64,000 nt of DNA, taken from Armatimonadota bacterium. Lineage in GTDB: Bacteria > Armatimonadota > Fimbriimonadia > Fimbriimonadales > Fimbriimonadaceae. The translations under genes were made by a program, and so were the position numbers. The notes under the pieces are model-generated. The model was not told where the DNA came from. It saw only the letters and a list, made by a program, of their open reading frames with translations, and searched no databases. Of the stretch, positions 1,940-51,582 are shown one piece after another. The stretch lies in NCBI GenBank assembly GCA_016789105.1, contig JAEURN010000002.1, forward strand, positions 124,001-188,000, read 5' to 3'. The stretch's first letter is position 1, and the number at the start of each line of letters is the position of its first letter.

Positions 1940-3094
1940 TCATTCCATCCGCCTCACCCACAGGCACTTTAAATACAGGCTTTGCGGGAACTCGGCCACG
2001 GCGGGATGATCCCGATCCTGAAGGGTTACCGCCTCCAATGCCACTTTGACCCCGCAATCCCCCGCCGCCAACTGGACGACATCCCAGCAATCCTCAATCC
2101 CCATCTGCCAGGTGCAAGCGCAAACCACAACCCGCCCGCCGGGATTCAAATGCGGCAAGGCATCATGGACTAACTTCCATATTCCCCATTTCAGCGAATC
2201 CCGCTTATCCCGGGTTTTGGCGATGGCCGGCGGATCCAAGATGATCCAGTTGTAACCCCCCTCGGCAGACTCCGCAAGGTAATCGAACGCATTGGCCTGC
2301 ACAAACTCCACTGTGAGGCCGTTCAACTGGGCGTTCGCCTGCCCGCACAACACGGGCAGTTGCTTGATATCCACACCCAGGCAATCCGCCCCCGCCGATG
2401 CCGCCGCCAAGCTGAACCCCCCGGTGTAACAAAAAAGGTCTAAAACCCGGTCGCCTTGCCGGACTTGCTTGGCCAGGTGGGCGCGTGAGTTCCGCTGATC
2501 CAAAAAGTGGCCCGTCTTTAAACCGTCTTTGGCCGGGACCAGATACCGCAGGCCACGCTCGCGGATTTCAATCCGCTCTGGAGTCTCTCCCGCCAATTGG
2601 CCCGAAAACTCTTCCATGCCCTCCTCCTTCCGGCCTTGCATGTCCGAGCGTTCAAAAACGCTTTCGCATCGCTCGGCCAGGATGGGCAGCCAAACAGGCT
2701 TGAGCTTTTCCATTCCCAGGTTCCGGACTTGCACCACGGCATGGCCGGCAAAAAAATCGACAATCAAGCCAGGGAGGCCATCTGCCTCACCATGCGCCCA
2801 TCGAAAGGCATCGGATTCAAGATCTATGGTCTGACGATAATCCCAGGCGCGGTCGAGACGGTCGCGGAAAAACGCCCCGTCCACCCCGCCATCGCCTAAG
2901 CGCAAGATCTTCACGGGATAGCGCGCGCCCGGGTTTACCAGCCCCATGCCGAGCCGAGTGCCGTCGGCCCCGCACAGTTCGGCCAAAGACCCCGGCGCCA
3001 CGTCCGATTCCCACCGGACATCGCTCCGCTGGAGCCACGGGTAGCCCCGTTGGAGTTTGCGGATAGCGCTGCCTTTGACCGTGACGACCGACAT
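1940..3094 (-). CDS. Class I SAM-dependent rRNA methyltransferase (RlmI-like)
   Basis: A 384-residue protein with the architecture of RlmI/RlmO 23S rRNA (cytosine-C5) methyltransferases: an N-terminal PUA domain (about 1-75, starting VVTVKGSAIRKLQRGYPW), a linker, then a Rossmann methyltransferase domain. The SAM-binding motif I is DLFCYTGGFSLAAA at about residue 218. The acidic residue after strand 2 is in GVDIKQ, and motif IV is WIILDPPAIAK. A later VVCACTW segment corresponds to the CSCS-like cysteine motif of the family. The substrate base cannot be proved from sequence. It is transcribed toward rplY. Upstream on the minus strand, TAGACT lies 11 bases before the ATG, implying a very short leader. 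Confidence 0.88.
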   Translation of the reverse strand: MSVVTVKGSAIRKLQRGYPWLQRSDVRWESDVAPGSLAELCGADGTRLGMGLVNPGARYPVKILRLGDGGVDGAFFRDRLDRAWDYRQTIDLESDAFRWAHGEADGLPGLIVDFFAGHAVVQVRNLGMEKLKPVWLPILAERCESVFERSDMQGRKEEGMEEFSGQLAGETPERIEIRERGLRYLVPAKDGLKTGHFLDQRNSRAHLAKQVRQGDRVLDLFCYTGGFSLAAASAGADCLGVDIKQLPVLCGQANAQLNGLTVEFVQANAFDYLAESAEGGYNWIILDPPAIAKTRDKRDSLKWGIWKLVHDALPHLNPGGRVVVCACTWQMGIEDCWDVVQLAAGDCGVKVALEAVTLQDRDHPAVAEFPQSLYLKCLWVRRME

Positions 3095-3150
3095 AATTCA
3101 AGCACAGTCTATCCGCCCGTGAACGGATGGCCCCCCTCAACCGATCATGG

Positions 3151-3156
3151 TAATAT
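3151..3156 (+). promoter_or_regulatory. Possible -10 element for tRNA-Ser
   Basis: TAATAT lies 11 bases before the first base of the mature tRNA. No convincing -35 hexamer is visible 17 bases upstream. Confidence 0.4.
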
Positions 3157-3167
3157 ATGCGGATTCC

Positions 3168-3257
3168 GGACAGGTGGCTGAGTGGACGAAAGCGCCCGCC
3201 TGCTAAGTGGGTAGGGGAGCAATCCTCTCTCGGGTTCGAATCCCGACCTGTCCGCCA
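3168..3257 (+). tRNA. tRNA-Ser (anticodon GCT)
   Basis: The acceptor stem GGACAGG (3168-3174) pairs with CCTGTCC (3247-3253), followed by discriminator G and an encoded CCA (3255-3257). The anticodon stem CCCGC/GTGGG (one G-U pair) encloses the loop CTGCTAA with anticodon GCT at 3202-3204, reading AGC/AGU. A long variable arm (GGGGAGCAATCCTCTC region) and a T arm with GGTTCGAATCC are present, as expected for a class II serine tRNA. The 90-base length including CCA is normal. Confidence 0.97.
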
Positions 3258-3279
3258 GTTTTCTTACCGAGGGCCAACC

Positions 3280-4335
3280 ATGTTCAAGCTCCTCCCAGCC
3301 GCGATCCTCGCCACCGCCCTGTTCGGCGTGGCCCATGCGCAAGGGTTCGACCAATACATGGCCCTCCGCAAGCAATACGGGATCACCCAGGCCTCCACAC
3401 CCGCTGCCCTCACCTCGTTTGTCGGGGAAAAAACTCTGGAAGTGCGCGGCGTCGTCCGAGGCATCATCGGATCGGCCAAGGGCCAGTTGCTCGTCCTGGA
3501 AAACCCCGATTCCAACCGCGAGATCTACATCAACGCCACCGATGCCCCGGCTTGGCTCAAAACGTCCAACACCACTGCAAGGCTCATCATCAAAGCCAAA
3601 CGCGATTCTGAAAGCGCTGCGCTGGAAACGATGCTCCTCGCCGCCAGCGCCGAAGGGCCCGTCGCCGAATTCGAAGCCAGGGAAATCGAAAAGGCCCGCA
3701 AAAAGGCTGAAGAAGAAGCCAAGCGGCAAGCTGACCGGAACAGCCGCAATGCAACGGCTCCTTCCGATCGGGGAGGGCGGCCGCCCAAAATGCCGGGCAA
3801 CCTGCCAGACCTCAAAACCAATCCCCTGCAGGACGGTCCGCAACTCTCGGCCGACTTCTTGGCCCTCGTTGCCCCGTACACGGATTTCATCCTCAAGCAA
3901 AACCGCAAACTCTCGCCCGCCCAGGCCCAACACATCGCGGAGACCATCCTCGCCTACAGTGCTCATTACGGGGTTGACCCCCGGCTGGTCATGGCACTTG
4001 TTTTGTGCGAGTCGAATTTCGACCCCAACTCCACCAGCGGGGCAGGAGCCCAAGGGCTCGGCCAACTCATGCCCGGCACCGCCCGGGGGCTCGGCGTCGG
4101 CAACAGCTACGACACCGAAGAAAACCTCTACGGCACCGTCAAGCTCCTTCGCGGCAACCTGGACAAATACACCGCCAAAACCGGCGACTCGTTCGAAGGT
4201 TTGGTCCTGGCTTTGGCCGCGTATAACGCCGGCCCGGGGGCCGTATCCAAGCATGGCGGCGTTCCGCCCTACCGCGAAACGCAGAACTACGTCCGCAAGG
4301 TCATTGCGACATACAAAAAGCTCTGCGGAGAGTGA
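3280..4335 (+). CDS. Secreted lytic transglycosylase, SLT domain
   Basis: A 351-residue exported peptidoglycan hydrolase. The ATG at 3280 is chosen because an open frame further upstream runs through the tRNA, while GAGGG at 3270-3274 is a fair ribosome site and the start gives a clean signal peptide (MFKLLPAAILATALFGVAHA). After a domain of about 110 residues resembling an OB-like fold and a Lys/Glu/Ala-rich linker (about 125-165), the C-terminal 130 residues are an SLT domain. Its catalytic Glu is in LCESNFDPNS, followed by GLGQLMPGTARGLGV and AYNAGPGAVSKHGGVPPY. It probably cleaves MurNAc-GlcNAc bonds with 1,6-anhydro product formation. The stop codon abuts the stop of the converging gene. 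Confidence 0.9.
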   Translation: MFKLLPAAILATALFGVAHAQGFDQYMALRKQYGITQASTPAALTSFVGEKTLEVRGVVRGIIGSAKGQLLVLENPDSNREIYINATDAPAWLKTSNTTARLIIKAKRDSESAALETMLLAASAEGPVAEFEAREIEKARKKAEEEAKRQADRNSRNATAPSDRGGRPPKMPGNLPDLKTNPLQDGPQLSADFLALVAPYTDFILKQNRKLSPAQAQHIAETILAYSAHYGVDPRLVMALVLCESNFDPNSTSGAGAQGLGQLMPGTARGLGVGNSYDTEENLYGTVKLLRGNLDKYTAKTGDSFEGLVLALAAYNAGPGAVSKHGGVPPYRETQNYVRKVIATYKKLCGE

Positions 4336-4944
4336 TCAGCCGCCCGATTGGCGCCCTTCGATCGAGGCCAGCAGGCACGCCCCAGCCAACACCATGCGCC
4401 GATCCAACTGGTCTGGCGGCTGGAAGCAATCGATCGCCAGGTGGTAGGTGAACGGGTTGAAGTTCTGCTTCAAATCCGCAACCCTCATTTCCCCCACCAA
4501 CATGTCGTAATTCTGGGGGATCAAATTTGTGAGCAGGCGCCGCACCAACGCCATCCACAACTGGTCTTCGATCAGAACCGCTACCGGCTGATCCATGGCG
4601 TTCATCACCGTCCATTCGTCGCGCGCCAACGAAGCCCAGCCCTTCCGCTGGAACGCACCGATCTTCTGCCCAGTTCGCGCATCCATCACGTCATAGGCGG
4701 CCGAAAAATCGATGATCTGACGGGCGAAAATCCCGACCAACTCGGTTTGAAAACCCGGCCCGCCAAATATCCGGATGTCTTCTTTGAGCTTGAATCCCTT
4801 TTTTTGCGCCTGCAACACCTGTTGCCCGCCGGAATCATAAATATCGAACGTCGCGCCGATCATCTTCAGCAACTGGCGCTTGAGATAATAGTGGCTCCCC
4901 GCAAACGGGTCGATTTCAGAAGGCACAAGCGGCGGCATCGACAT
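4336..4944 (-). CDS. Tubby/LURP-one/scramblase-like protein of unknown function
   Basis: A 202-residue protein without signal peptide. The pattern SHYYLKRQLLKMIGATFDIYD, then GFKLKEDIRIFGG and later FQRKGWASLARDEWTV, resembles the 12-stranded beta-barrel of the Tubby C-terminal/LURP-one/phospholipid scramblase superfamily, in which short beta strands carry 'x-Lys-x-Phe-x-Leu-x-Glu' patterns. A C-terminal Ala-Gly-rich hydrophobic helix (about 180-195) would match the buried helix of that fold. Function is not known. Its own -10 (TAGAAT) is only nine bases before the ATG. The convergence with the transglycosylase leaves no spacer, because the two stop codons form the palindrome TGATCA. Confidence 0.6.
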   Translation of the reverse strand: MSMPPLVPSEIDPFAGSHYYLKRQLLKMIGATFDIYDSGGQQVLQAQKKGFKLKEDIRIFGGPGFQTELVGIFARQIIDFSAAYDVMDARTGQKIGAFQRKGWASLARDEWTVMNAMDQPVAVLIEDQLWMALVRRLLTNLIPQNYDMLVGEMRVADLKQNFNPFTYHLAIDCFQPPDQLDRRMVLAGACLLASIEGRQSGG

Positions 4945-4953
4945 AACCGCCGG

Positions 4954-4959
4954 ATTCTA
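4954..4959 (-). promoter_or_regulatory. -10 element (TAGAAT) close to start codon
   Basis: TAGAAT on the minus strand lies nine bases before the ATG at 4944, leaving a leader of only a few bases and no room for a Shine-Dalgarno site. Confidence 0.5.
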
Positions 4960-4992
4960 ACCCGGAAACCCAATCAATTACAATCGAAAATT

Positions 4993-5350
4993 TGGTGGAG
5001 GCGCCGGGAATTGAACCCGGTTCCAAAACTGTCGTCCCTAAAGCGTCCACGAGCGTCCCCTTCTTTTTGTGTCTCGGCGCGGGCCAATCCCGAAGGTTAG
5101 GCTGGCTTCGCACCCAGTCCGGTTGATCTAGCCTTTGGGGTACGGACAGAACCCTTCCAGGCGATCCCTTATTTGCGACGTCTAACTAGGCGGGAAGGGA
5201 ACCCTACTAGCCGACGAGCTGCGTCAATTAGGCAGCGTAAGCGAAGTTGTTATCTTCGGCAGTTGTTTTTTTGCCGTTTGTTTACGAGGCCAACGGCACC
5301 TCGGCTCGCAACCTTAAAGCGATCCAGCTCTGTCGAAGCCTGACGCCCCC
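4993..5350 (-). ncRNA. ssrA: Transfer-messenger RNA (tmRNA)
   Basis: The minus strand starts GGGGGCGTCAGGCTTCGACAG at 5350, the typical tmRNA 5' end. It finishes with the T arm GGTTCAATTCC, CGCCTCC, A and CCA at 4993. GGGGGCG pairs with CGCCTCC (two G-U pairs) to close the tRNA-like domain. Within it lies the resume codon GCC and the tag frame encoding AEDNNFAYAA followed by TAA (5260 down to 5228). tmRNA with SmpB rescues stalled ribosomes and tags nascent chains for proteolysis. Length of 358 bases is normal for a one-piece tmRNA. Confidence 0.97.
5228..5260 (-). other. tmRNA proteolysis-tag reading frame (AEDNNFAYAA)
   Basis: Eleven codons GCC GAA GAT AAC AAC TTC GCT TAC GCT GCC TAA. The Ala-Ala end is the canonical ClpXP degron. 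It is preceded by an A-rich stretch, as in most tmRNAs. Confidence 0.93.
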
Positions 5351-47016: not shown

Positions 47017-48384
47017 GTGGTCGCCGAGTGGTTCTATTGGCTGAATGAGAACAACCCCCTGCTATTGGGGCTGATCCGCGTCCTTTTCGTTATCGTTGCC
47101 ATCCTTGGCCTCGTCCCTCCGTTGATCTGGTGGGAGCGGCGACTCTTGAGCTGGATGCAGGATCGCATTGGGCCCAACCGGTCGGGCACGATCACCTTTA
47201 GAGACAATTTCCCCATCAAGGGTCTTGCCGGAAAGCAGGTTCGGACGTTTGGGCTCATCCAACCGCTGTTGGACGGCGTGAAGCTGTTTTTCAAAGAAGA
47301 CATCACCCCCACCGCCATCGACCGGAAAATCTATTTCATTGCCCCGGCACTGGCGCTGTTCCCCGCCTTCACGATTGCGGCAACCTTGCCCTGGGGGCCC
47401 AGCCACGGGCTCTACGGCCTGCTGACCCCTATCGCCGATGTCGAAATCGGCGTGCTGTACGTCTTGGCGATCTCGTCGCTCGGCGCCTACGGGATCGTCT
47501 TGGCCGGATACGCCAGCAACAACAAGTATTCGCTCATGGGGGGGCTCCGCGCATCGGCCCAACTCATCAGCTACGAACTGGCCATGGCCATGGCCGTCGC
47601 GGGGATCGTCTTGGCAACCGGCAGCATGAAGCTCACCGAAGTCGTCAAGGCGCAAGAACAAGAACTGTGGGGCGCGGTCCCCTGGCTCCAAAACTGGTAC
47701 ATCTTCACGCCCTTTGGGTTCATCGCTGCCGTCATCTTTATGATCGCCATCATTGCGGAAACCAACCGCGCCCCCTTTGACCTGCCCGAAGCGGAAAACG
47801 AACTCATCGCCGGTTACCACACGGAATACAGCTCCATGAAGTTCGCGGTCTTCTTTATGGGGGAATATGCCGCGATGTTTGTGTTCGGCGGGGTGTTCAG
47901 CGCCCTGTTCCTTGGGGGCTACAACATTGCCCCCATTAACTGGGGGTACCTGGCCACCAATAACGTGTTTGGCATGGCCGGGTTATGGAACGCAATGGCC
48001 GGGGCCAACTATTGGCTCGCGCCAACGGTGTTCCTGGCCAAGTGCTTTGGCGGCATCACCTTCTTCATCTGGTTGCGCGCCACCTTGCCAAGGCTCCGAT
48101 ATGACCAGCTCATGAGCCTGGGATGGAAAACCCTTTTACCGCTGGGGGTCGCCAATTTCATCGTCGTCGGCCTCTGGATCATCGGCACCGAGATGTACGG
48201 AACCGCCGGGGGGTGGGCGGCCGCCATCGCCGCGATCGTCCTAGGCTACATCCTCTACCTCAACCTCATCGGCACCAAAAAAGCCCAGGCGGCCTTGCCC
48301 AAGCGCACGGTCACCCTGGTCAAGGCCCAACCGGCCCGCGCGGCCGCTATGGCCCCCGAACCCAACCCTGCGGAGGCGCCCTAG
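47017..48384 (+). CDS. nuoH: NADH-quinone oxidoreductase subunit H (extended)
   Basis: A 455-residue polytopic membrane subunit that forms part of the quinone chamber. WWERRLLSWMQDRIGPNRSG, GLIQPLLDGVKLFFKED, GYASNNKYSLMGGLRASAQ and AETNRAPFDLPEAENELIAGYHTEY are the classic NuoH motifs. At 455 residues it is longer than E. coli NuoH (325): it has an insertion near residue 210 (TEVVKAQEQELWGAVPWLQ) and about 45 extra C-terminal residues. Start GTG at 47017 with GTGAGG five bases upstream. No nuoI follows, although nuoI usually lies next. Confidence 0.95.
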   Translation: MVAEWFYWLNENNPLLLGLIRVLFVIVAILGLVPPLIWWERRLLSWMQDRIGPNRSGTITFRDNFPIKGLAGKQVRTFGLIQPLLDGVKLFFKEDITPTAIDRKIYFIAPALALFPAFTIAATLPWGPSHGLYGLLTPIADVEIGVLYVLAISSLGAYGIVLAGYASNNKYSLMGGLRASAQLISYELAMAMAVAGIVLATGSMKLTEVVKAQEQELWGAVPWLQNWYIFTPFGFIAAVIFMIAIIAETNRAPFDLPEAENELIAGYHTEYSSMKFAVFFMGEYAAMFVFGGVFSALFLGGYNIAPINWGYLATNNVFGMAGLWNAMAGANYWLAPTVFLAKCFGGITFFIWLRATLPRLRYDQLMSLGWKTLLPLGVANFIVVGLWIIGTEMYGTAGGWAAAIAAIVLGYILYLNLIGTKKAQAALPKRTVTLVKAQPARAAAMAPEPNPAEAP

Positions 48385-48474
48385 CCTCAAAGCCATCCCC
48401 GGCGGCTGGGAACGCGAAACGGGGAACGACATGATGGACAGACACAACGAGAACAATCGAGGAGGGGTGCAGGC

Positions 48475-48987
48475 GTGACGCTCAATCAGGCTGCATTCAT
48501 CGTGCTCGCCCTCACCGCGCTCCTGGGGGCCGCCGGAGTGGTGTTCCTCAAAAGCCCGGTGCGAGCCGCGCTTGCCCTCGTCGTCAATTTCTTCACTCTC
48601 GGGCTGGTCTATTTCATGCTCGGCAGCCAAATGCTCGGGATCACCCAGATCATGGTGTACGCCGGGGCCATCATGGTCCTGTTCCTCTTCGTGATCATGA
48701 TCCTTAAGTCGCAACCCGGCCAAGATGGCGAGGACGTCGTTTTGTGGCGCGACCCCCGGTTTGCTTTTGGCTTGATCGGCACCGCAACCACCGTCGCCCT
48801 CATCTACAACTTCGTCATCCGACCGACCCAGTCGCTTTACGGCCTCGATTTCGACCGCTCTTACGGAACGCCGCAAGCCATCGGCAATGCCTTCTTCACA
48901 ACCTATGTGTTCCCGTTCGAAGTCATCTCGATCCTCCTCTTGATCGGGGTGGTCGGGTCGATCTTGCTGGCCAAGAGGAAGTTCTAA
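48475..48987 (+). CDS. nuoJ: NADH-quinone oxidoreductase subunit J
   Basis: A 170-residue, five-helix membrane subunit. The third helix carries YAGAIMVLFLFVIMI, the conserved NuoJ helix with its pi-bulge involved in proton coupling. Start GTG 48475 with GAGGAGGGG seven bases upstream. Helix 1 starts FIVLALTALLGAAGVVFL and the C-terminus EVISILLLIGVVGSILLAKRKF is typical. It follows nuoH after 90 noncoding bases instead of nuoI. Confidence 0.95.
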   Translation: MTLNQAAFIVLALTALLGAAGVVFLKSPVRAALALVVNFFTLGLVYFMLGSQMLGITQIMVYAGAIMVLFLFVIMILKSQPGQDGEDVVLWRDPRFAFGLIGTATTVALIYNFVIRPTQSLYGLDFDRSYGTPQAIGNAFFTTYVFPFEVISILLLIGVVGSILLAKRKF

Positions 48988-49371: not shown

Positions 49372-51582
49372 ATGGATCAAGAAGTCTATAAATCGGTCTG
49401 GTGGGTGCTCGCCCTGCCCGTCTTCGGGTTCCTCATCCAAGCCTTCACCGGCAAGATCATCATCGACAACCTCGGCCCCAAAATTGGGCGCAAAGTGATG
49501 GGCGCCATCGCCGTGTTGCCGATCGCCGCCGCCTTCGCCCTCGGTGCCCAGATCACGGCGGCCTTGGTCAAATCGCCAGAAGAATCGCGGGTTCACATCC
49601 TCACCCTCTTCCAATGGATCACCGTCGGCAACCTCAGCATCCCGTTCGAAGTCCGGGTTGACCCCCTGAGCATGACCATGGTGCTCATTATCACCGGCAT
49701 CGGGTCGCTTATTCACCTTTACGCCACTGGATACATGGCCGAAGAGCCAGACTTCCCCCGGTTTTTCACCTACCTCAACCTGTTTGTTGCCGCCATGCTC
49801 ATCCTGGTGCTTGGCAACAACCTGGCCCTGTTGTTTGTGGGTTGGGAAGGCGTCGGCGTCTGCTCTTACCTGCTGATCGGCTTTTGGTACAAGGATAAAG
49901 CCAACAGCTTTGCCAGCAACAAAGCGTTCATCGTCAACCGTGTTGGCGACTGGGGTCTGACCCTCGGGATGTTCACACTTGCCTTGATGGCCTCGCAAAC
50001 GCTGGGGCCGCTTGGCGGCGACCCGCGCTGGCTCAGTTACGACGTGCTTTTGCCGAATGCGCAGGCGTTGGCTTCCGGATTCGACCCCGCGTTCCTAACG
50101 GCCGCCTGCATCTTGCTTTTCATCGGTGCGATGGGCAAATCGGCGCAGTTCCCGCTCTACATCTGGTTGCCCGACGCCATGGCCGGCCCAACCCCGGTTT
50201 CGGCATTGATCCACGCCGCAACAATGGTCACCTCCGGGGTGTTCTTGCTCAACCGGATGAGCCCGTTCTTCGCCCTTTCCCCAACTGCAGGGGCCGTTGT
50301 GGCGATCACGGGGGCCATCACGGCGCTCCTCGGGGCGGTCATCGCCTTCGGCCAAACCGACATCAAAAAAGTCCTCGCCTATTCAACAGTTTCGCAGCTC
50401 GGCTATATGTTCATCGCCTGCGGAGTCGGCGCGTATTGGGTCGGCTTGTTCCATGTCGCGACCCATGCCTTTTTCAAAGCTCTGCTGTTCCTTGGTTCCG
50501 GGGCGGTAATCCACGCCATGGCCCACAACCAAGACATGCGAAACTACGGGAAACTACTCAAGTACCTGCCCATCACCGGGGCGACCATGCTCGTTGGGTG
50601 GCTTGCCATCGCCGGGCTCCCGTTCATGAGCGGGGCATTTTCCAAAGAAGAGATCCTCCTCAGCTCGTTCAACTCCCACCTGAACATGGGCGGGGTGCCC
50701 GTCGGGACGGTCGTTTTCGGGGTTGCCCTCTTCGTCGCCATCCTCACCGCCCTCTACATGTCGCGCATGACCTACATGACCTTTTTCAGCGGAAGCGAAC
50801 GGTGGAGGTTGATCCCCGCCCACGGCGGCCATGGTCACGACAGCCACCACGGGCATGACGGCCACCATCAAGATCACCACCAAGACCACCACCACGGGCC
50901 GGATGTCCATGACTTCTACTACGATGATGTGGAACTCGCCGCCATTGAAGCCGCAACCCCGCACGACCACCACCACGAACTCGACGAAAACCACGAGCCC
51001 CACGAGGTTCCGCCATCCATGTGGATCCCGCTGGCCGTGCTCGCTGTCCTCAGCATCGTCGGTGGCGGATGGCTCTTCTTCGGCGTGAACCTCGCCGAAT
51101 GGCTCCACAGTGGAGGGGTCGTCGTCGACCACCACGAACATATCGAGTCCATCGGTGCGTTCGTCACCGAAACCCTCCAGAGGCCGATCTTTTGGATGGC
51201 GACGGCCGCATTCGCCGTCGGCGTCGCCGGCGGATGGCTCATCTATGGCAAAAAACTCCCCGAAGACGACGGCATGGACACGGCCAAGTGGAAAGGCTGG
51301 CGCAAAGCCGCCGCCAAACATTTTGGAATCGACAACGCCCTCACCCAGGGTTCGATCCGCGGCGGCGACGCCCTGGCCAAAGCCACATGGGGCGTTGATC
51401 GCTACCTGGTCGACGGGATAGTCAATGCCACTGGCTACATCTCCTCTGGGATCGGCAGAATGGTCGGCCGCCTCCAAACCGGATATGTCCGGGGGTATGC
51501 CACCGTGATGACAGTGGGGGTTGCCGCCCTCATCGTCTACTTCGTCTACGCCATGGTCAACCTTAACGGGGGTGCCCGCTAA
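49372..51582 (+). CDS. nuoL: NADH-quinone oxidoreductase subunit L with His-rich loop
   Basis: A 736-residue antiporter-like subunit. Conserved elements: GWEGVGVCSYLLIGFWY (Glu of helix 5), NRVGDWGLTLGMF, LPDAMAGPTPVSALIHAATMVTSG (Lys/His pore) and DIKKVLAYSTVSQLGYM. Residues about 480-545 form an unusual loop with 20 histidines in about 63 positions (HGGHGHDSHHGHDGHH, QDHHQDHHH, DHHHELDENHEPHE). Beyond that come the last helices and the lateral-helix region. Its ATG lies nine bases after nuoK, and its stop overlaps the nuoM start by one base. Confidence 0.96.
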   Translation: MDQEVYKSVWWVLALPVFGFLIQAFTGKIIIDNLGPKIGRKVMGAIAVLPIAAAFALGAQITAALVKSPEESRVHILTLFQWITVGNLSIPFEVRVDPLSMTMVLIITGIGSLIHLYATGYMAEEPDFPRFFTYLNLFVAAMLILVLGNNLALLFVGWEGVGVCSYLLIGFWYKDKANSFASNKAFIVNRVGDWGLTLGMFTLALMASQTLGPLGGDPRWLSYDVLLPNAQALASGFDPAFLTAACILLFIGAMGKSAQFPLYIWLPDAMAGPTPVSALIHAATMVTSGVFLLNRMSPFFALSPTAGAVVAITGAITALLGAVIAFGQTDIKKVLAYSTVSQLGYMFIACGVGAYWVGLFHVATHAFFKALLFLGSGAVIHAMAHNQDMRNYGKLLKYLPITGATMLVGWLAIAGLPFMSGAFSKEEILLSSFNSHLNMGGVPVGTVVFGVALFVAILTALYMSRMTYMTFFSGSERWRLIPAHGGHGHDSHHGHDGHHQDHHQDHHHGPDVHDFYYDDVELAAIEAATPHDHHHELDENHEPHEVPPSMWIPLAVLAVLSIVGGGWLFFGVNLAEWLHSGGVVVDHHEHIESIGAFVTETLQRPIFWMATAAFAVGVAGGWLIYGKKLPEDDGMDTAKWKGWRKAAAKHFGIDNALTQGSIRGGDALAKATWGVDRYLVDGIVNATGYISSGIGRMVGRLQTGYVRGYATVMTVGVAALIVYFVYAMVNLNGGAR
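50818..51008 (+). other. His-rich insertion inside nuoL
   Basis: About 63 codons encode 20 His with Asp, Glu and Gly, lying in a soluble loop between membrane helices. It is absent from model NuoL proteins, to my knowledge. It is likely to bind metal or act as a proton-buffering segment. Confidence 0.85.

Follow-up and report, generated by a model that had tools for sequence, protein, structure and literature searches.

There is continuing debate over how and where complex I takes up protons from the cytoplasm, above all over its module NuoL. A strongly His-rich and often lengthened NuoL loop, present across several phyla, is a simple candidate for an element that collects protons or responds to metal.

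Two described systems bear on the locus reported here. NDH-1L of Thermosynechococcus is purified on nickel through a native His-rich area of its NdhF1 subunit (PMC6992706, PMC4131877). In Paracoccus the TMH14–15 loop of ND5 is seen in the structure to be periplasmic (PMC11522691). A full-text search of a literature collection with few subscription journals returned no paper on histidine-rich or His-rich NuoL.

The NuoL considered here is encoded in a stretch of 64,000 nucleotides, called the window, from a member of the Fimbriimonadaceae. Its TM13–TM14 loop is a large variant of a NuoL loop that is generally His-rich, a property mentioned in passing for cyanobacteria, and it is a strong outlier within its own genome. 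The size of the loop, its motifs conserved across the order, and the general rule that the TM13–14 loop is His-rich are new, and no description of this rule was found. Of these, the general rule is more worth reporting than the single case from the Fimbriimonadaceae.

The NuoL Gene and Its TM13–TM14 Loop

The features discussed below are the following, with coordinates in the window.

49372..51582, + strand: nuoL (736 aa), encoding the antiporter-like subunit of complex I that pumps protons; gene order nuoG-H-J-K-L-M-N
50701..50787, + strand: TM13, residues 444–472 (AlphaFold2 helix)
50788..51009, + strand: TM13–TM14 loop, residues 473–546, 74 aa with 20 His, assigned to the cytoplasmic side from the model and published topology
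50797..50805, + strand: N-terminal anchor E476-R477-W478, its W invariant in 50 distinct Fimbriimonadales loops
50818..50907, + strand: length-variable His/Asp/Gly tract, residues 483–512, 13 His, predicted to be disordered (AlphaFold2 and alignment)
50902..50955, + strand: conserved motif D511..HDFYYDDVEL (family consensus DxHGFFYTDEEM/L) with a short predicted helix, 519–528 (alignment and models)
50962..51006, + strand: second His cluster H531..E545, consensus HEHHHxLDxxHxP(H/K)EV (alignment of relatives)
51013..51084, + strand: TM14, residues 548–571 (AlphaFold2)

The reading frame of NuoL is intact and full-length, scoring 665 bits against PRK06590.1 (NCBIfam; cut-off 556) and 659 bits against TIGR01974 (cut-off 407.5). 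It is flanked by NuoG, H, J and K upstream and by NuoM and N downstream. The AlphaFold2 model (mean pLDDT 84.8) has 16 TM helices and includes the long lateral helix that lies between TM15 and TM16, modelled as a helix at 650–702 followed by another at 705–731. The best Foldseek matches of the model in the PDB are NuoL, ND5 and NdhF chains of complex I, and a phmmer search of the PDB with the C-terminal part of the protein matched only complex I chains. Lys256, His365 and many further core residues are invariant across 45 aligned NuoL sequences, so that the antiporter core is intact on both sides of the loop. An earlier note on this DNA had judged the core motifs undamaged, and the alignment and the open frame bear this out. 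A damaged gene is ruled out by the full-length frame and the predicted NuoL fold.

Two features of the neighboring genes may be recorded. No nuoI lies between nuoH and nuoJ (47017–48984); a NuoI match above cut-off occurs on another contig (G000:C4:183287–183670). NuoH (47017–48384), at 455 aa, exceeds the matched NCBIfam NuoH models in length and carries an Ala/Pro-rich C-terminal tail.

The 20 His fall exactly within residues 483–545, encoded at 50818–51006 (AHGGHGHDSHHGHDGHHQDHHQDHHHGPDVHDFYYDDVELAAIEAATPHDHHHELDENHEPHE); the count of 20 in about 63 residues and the position given in the earlier note are exact. At an overall His content of 2.5%, the probability of at least 20 His in such a stretch is about 5e-17 per 63-residue segment. 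In a 318-kb sample of the genome comprising about 280 long ORFs, the runner-up 63-aa stretch has 11 His, and several of the runners-up are probably spurious ORFs. A genome-wide His bias is thus ruled out, as no other such stretch in the sample exceeds 11 His. When the whole genome was searched with three His-rich patterns, the NuoL loop was among the matches to the second and third; the sole match to the first lies outside any in-frame ORF of L226.

Within the loop, pLDDT falls below 50 at residues 484–510, and the tract is predicted to be disordered. The tract contains a 12-base tandem unit, CCACCACCAAGA, repeated 2.8 times. Helix 519–528 is weakly predicted in both AlphaFold2 models, with pLDDT of about 47–68 over the motif, and neither model gives the cluster H531..E545 a confident fold. 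The second model, from a run restricted to Fimbriimonadales sequences, is weaker (pLDDT 69) and leaves the loop unordered. The loop contains no Cys, and Cys is rare among relatives, occurring in one loop (L127). A smaller His cluster, DHHEH (residues 586–590, 51127–51141), is found in the next loop, TM14–15, which is periplasmic.

The earlier note had proposed a prediction of topology; here the side of the membrane on which the loop lies was assigned from the helix count of the AlphaFold2 model together with published topology. The TM13–14 loop precedes by one helix the TMH14–15 loop that is periplasmic in Paracoccus (PMC11522691), and should therefore be cytoplasmic, on the side from which NuoL takes up protons.

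Conservation within the Fimbriimonadales

Fifty distinct loops were compared, drawn from the family of the window and one sister family of the same order. All 50 share one anatomy, an ERW anchor, a His/Asp tract, a FFYTDEE-type motif and a terminal His cluster, and the Trp of the anchor is present in every one. The tract spans 25–50 aa and averages 34% His and 23% Asp plus Glu, with less than 1% Lys plus Arg. In the motif D-x-x-G-F-F-Y-T-D-E-E-(M/L), the Asp is conserved in 96% of the loops, the first Phe in 100% and the Glu in 94%. His533–His535, Leu537, Pro543 and Glu545 are invariant in 17 relatives and His541 nearly so; the position of His544 is frequently occupied by Lys or Arg (PKEV, PREV). 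The loop is real and is kept across most of the order. The earlier note had asked whether relatives would expose it as an artefact; its occurrence in independently assembled genomes rules out an assembly error.

Conservation of the loop is not uniform. In the genus of the window the number of His stays at 19–21 while their positions and the length of the loop shift; the motif half aligns with congeners free of gaps. Several genera of the same family have loops shortened to 35–44 aa, the loops of two families that stand further off in the order (f3, f5) measure 13–25 aa, and the FFYTDEE segment is absent from several family members (L130, L131, L135, L136). Nonsynonymous differences in the tract lie well below synonymous differences in most congener pairs, a comparison that is supportive only, since it covers 25–31 codons and the synonymous sites are saturated.

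Positions 3001–5160 of a record named Methanoregulaceae archaeon SJ84 (L046) encode a Fimbriimonadales NuoL that equals L032 (G130) both in its loop and in its identity to the protein of the window. The record is probably a mislabelled or contaminated bin.

Histidine Enrichment across Bacteria

The wider comparison used 189 NuoL sequences from Armatimonadota, Acidobacteriota, Myxococcota, Actinomycetota, Bacteroidota and other groups, chosen for their similarity to the protein of the window, and the frequencies carry that bias. In this set the TM13–14 loop averages 21% His and the other NuoL loops 1.5–8.7%, the second most His-rich being TM14–15 at 8.7%. The His fraction of the TM13–14 loop exceeds that of the rest of its own protein in 188 of the 189. 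Short loops of 10–20 aa are already 19% His. Of the 95 loops that are at least 30 aa long, 83 contain 15% His or more and only five are His-poor (<12%). His-richness is a general property of the TM13–14 loop in nearly all bacterial NuoL sampled.

The loop has also been lengthened repeatedly in other phyla. On a tree of NuoL sequences from which the loop was removed, the label "long His-rich" requires at least 20 changes, or at least 19 if it is defined as 8 or more His. Other Armatimonadota have long His loops of their own, and the loop of Actinomycetota relatives measures 23 aa. An Acidimicrobiales NuoL (L111) has a loop of 163 aa that is rich in Ala, Glu and Lys, resembles a coiled coil and contains 2 His; long TM13–14 loops thus need not be His-rich. 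Some Acidobacteriota genomes encode at least two NuoL-like genes (L160, L164 and L159 in G306, G363 and G351).

These data qualify two statements of the earlier note. Its description of an added loop holds relative to E. coli, but what was added is an elongation of a loop whose His-richness is nearly universal in the sample. Its statement that such a loop is missing from model NuoL proteins is correct only in part, given this enrichment, the His area of Thermosynechococcus elongatus NdhF1 and the long forms in Acidobacteriota and Myxococcota.

Possible Functions of the Loop

The loop is a lineage-specific lengthening of the His-rich TM13–TM14 loop. Our first choice for its function, to which we assign a probability of about 0.4, is a cytoplasmic surface for collecting and buffering protons. 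Most of the loop would form a disordered brush of His and carboxylate side chains where the most distal pump subunit takes up protons. Because its side chains titrate close to neutral pH and Lys and Arg are almost lacking, it could collect and buffer protons near the cytoplasmic entry of NuoL, while the fixed FFYTDEE helix and the HHHxLDxxHxPxE end would keep it close to the membrane before TM14. The same chemistry would also bind metal reversibly, as a by-product, and slippage, to which the 12-base unit points, probably supplied the raw material; slippage alone leaves the steady His bias across phyla unexplained.

The composition of the tract and its predicted cytoplasmic placement agree with what is expected of such an antenna. 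That members of the genus keep close to 20 His although the positions move is what would be expected if composition, not sequence, counts. A brush would account for a composition that is kept as sequence drifts, for the near absence of Lys and Arg, and for a property that is general to the loop. Three observations count against the brush. The long form is dispensable for pumping, since the genera of the same family with loops of 35–44 aa and the Actinomycetota relatives manage without it. NuoM of the window has no comparable His loop, although proton uptake should be needed there also, and the fixed HHH cluster and FFYTDEE motif go beyond what buffering alone explains. It is possible, if rather doubtful, that bacterial NuoL in general bears on TM13–14 a cytoplasmic His/carboxylate antenna or metal-responsive gate that has been enlarged repeatedly in different phyla, with the motif-pinned loops of the Fimbriimonadales among the largest.

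Metal binding is our second choice, and somewhat unlikely. The tract may reversibly bind Zn, Ni or Cu, and thereby buffer metal at the membrane or place proton uptake by NuoL under metal control, with the invariant HHHx5HxxH-like cluster as a site of higher affinity. The His and carboxylate content of the tract, the constancy of His533–His535 with near-constancy of His541, and the nickel purification of Thermosynechococcus NDH-1L through a His area aligned to the same loop are all in keeping with this. Any His-rich stretch, though, would be expected to bind a nickel column, which does not imply a physiological role for metal; His544 is often replaced by Lys or Arg, Cys is lacking here and rare in relatives, and the cluster has no confidently predicted fold.

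The FFYTDEE and HHH segments call for a docking or ligand role, and neither the proton-collecting nor the metal model accounts for them. A structural alternative, which we hold to be unlikely and less probable than metal binding, is that ERW, DxHGFFYTDEE and HHHxLDxxHxPxEV serve to dock onto NuoL or NuoM, or to bind a partner, the His tract acting only as a soluble linker. Fixed motifs do flank a length-variable tract in the 50 loops, the motif half is gap-free among congeners, and both models contain the short helix; yet the pLDDT of the motif is low to middling, the family members named above lack the FFYTDEE segment, and the His-richness of the linker in this and other phyla would be left unexplained. 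Improbable is a tolerated low-complexity expansion, in which CAC/GAC-type repeat slippage lengthened a surface loop with no function of its own: the tandem unit, the variable His positions and lengths among congeners and the short loops of some relatives suit it, but His enrichment extends to short loops and across phyla, so few long loops are His-poor although slippage could expand any codon, the flanking motifs are conserved, and nonsynonymous differences are the fewer in most congener pairs, if over few codons.

Comparison with Known Systems

The proton-collecting reading and its rivals can be set against four groups of known proteins. NdhF1 of T. elongatus (PDB 6hum, 6khi, 6l7o, chain F) has a His-rich stretch, EHHDHHSHH..PHES, that aligns to the same TM13–TM14 loop; by alignment, we infer that this stretch is the nickel-binding area used in purification (PMC6992706, PMC4131877). 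It is much shorter, its aligned part showing about 7 His against 20 here, and no FFYTDEE or HHHxLDxxHxPxEV motif is seen in that part. The long His-rich loop could likewise serve as a built-in tag in the affinity purification of native complex I from Fimbriimonas and many Acidobacteriota.

NuoL (Nqo12) of Thermus thermophilus (4hea) and that of Mycobacterium smegmatis (8e9g) share the fold and the position of the loop (Foldseek E values 3e-33 and 3e-37, respectively), and their loops end in HPHEAP before TM14; they differ in that the loop is only about a dozen residues long.

The long loops of Acidobacteriota and Myxococcota (L103, L163, L166–L169, L099, L195) lie at the same site and mostly contain 13–20 His in 55–84 aa, with 12 in 59 aa in L195. 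Beyond a terminal HE they have no motif in common with the Fimbriimonadales loop, and the two groups were probably lengthened independently. ND5 of Paracoccus denitrificans likewise has a lineage-specific disordered insertion, at TMH14–15; that insertion occupies the next loop, on the opposite, periplasmic side (PMC11522691).
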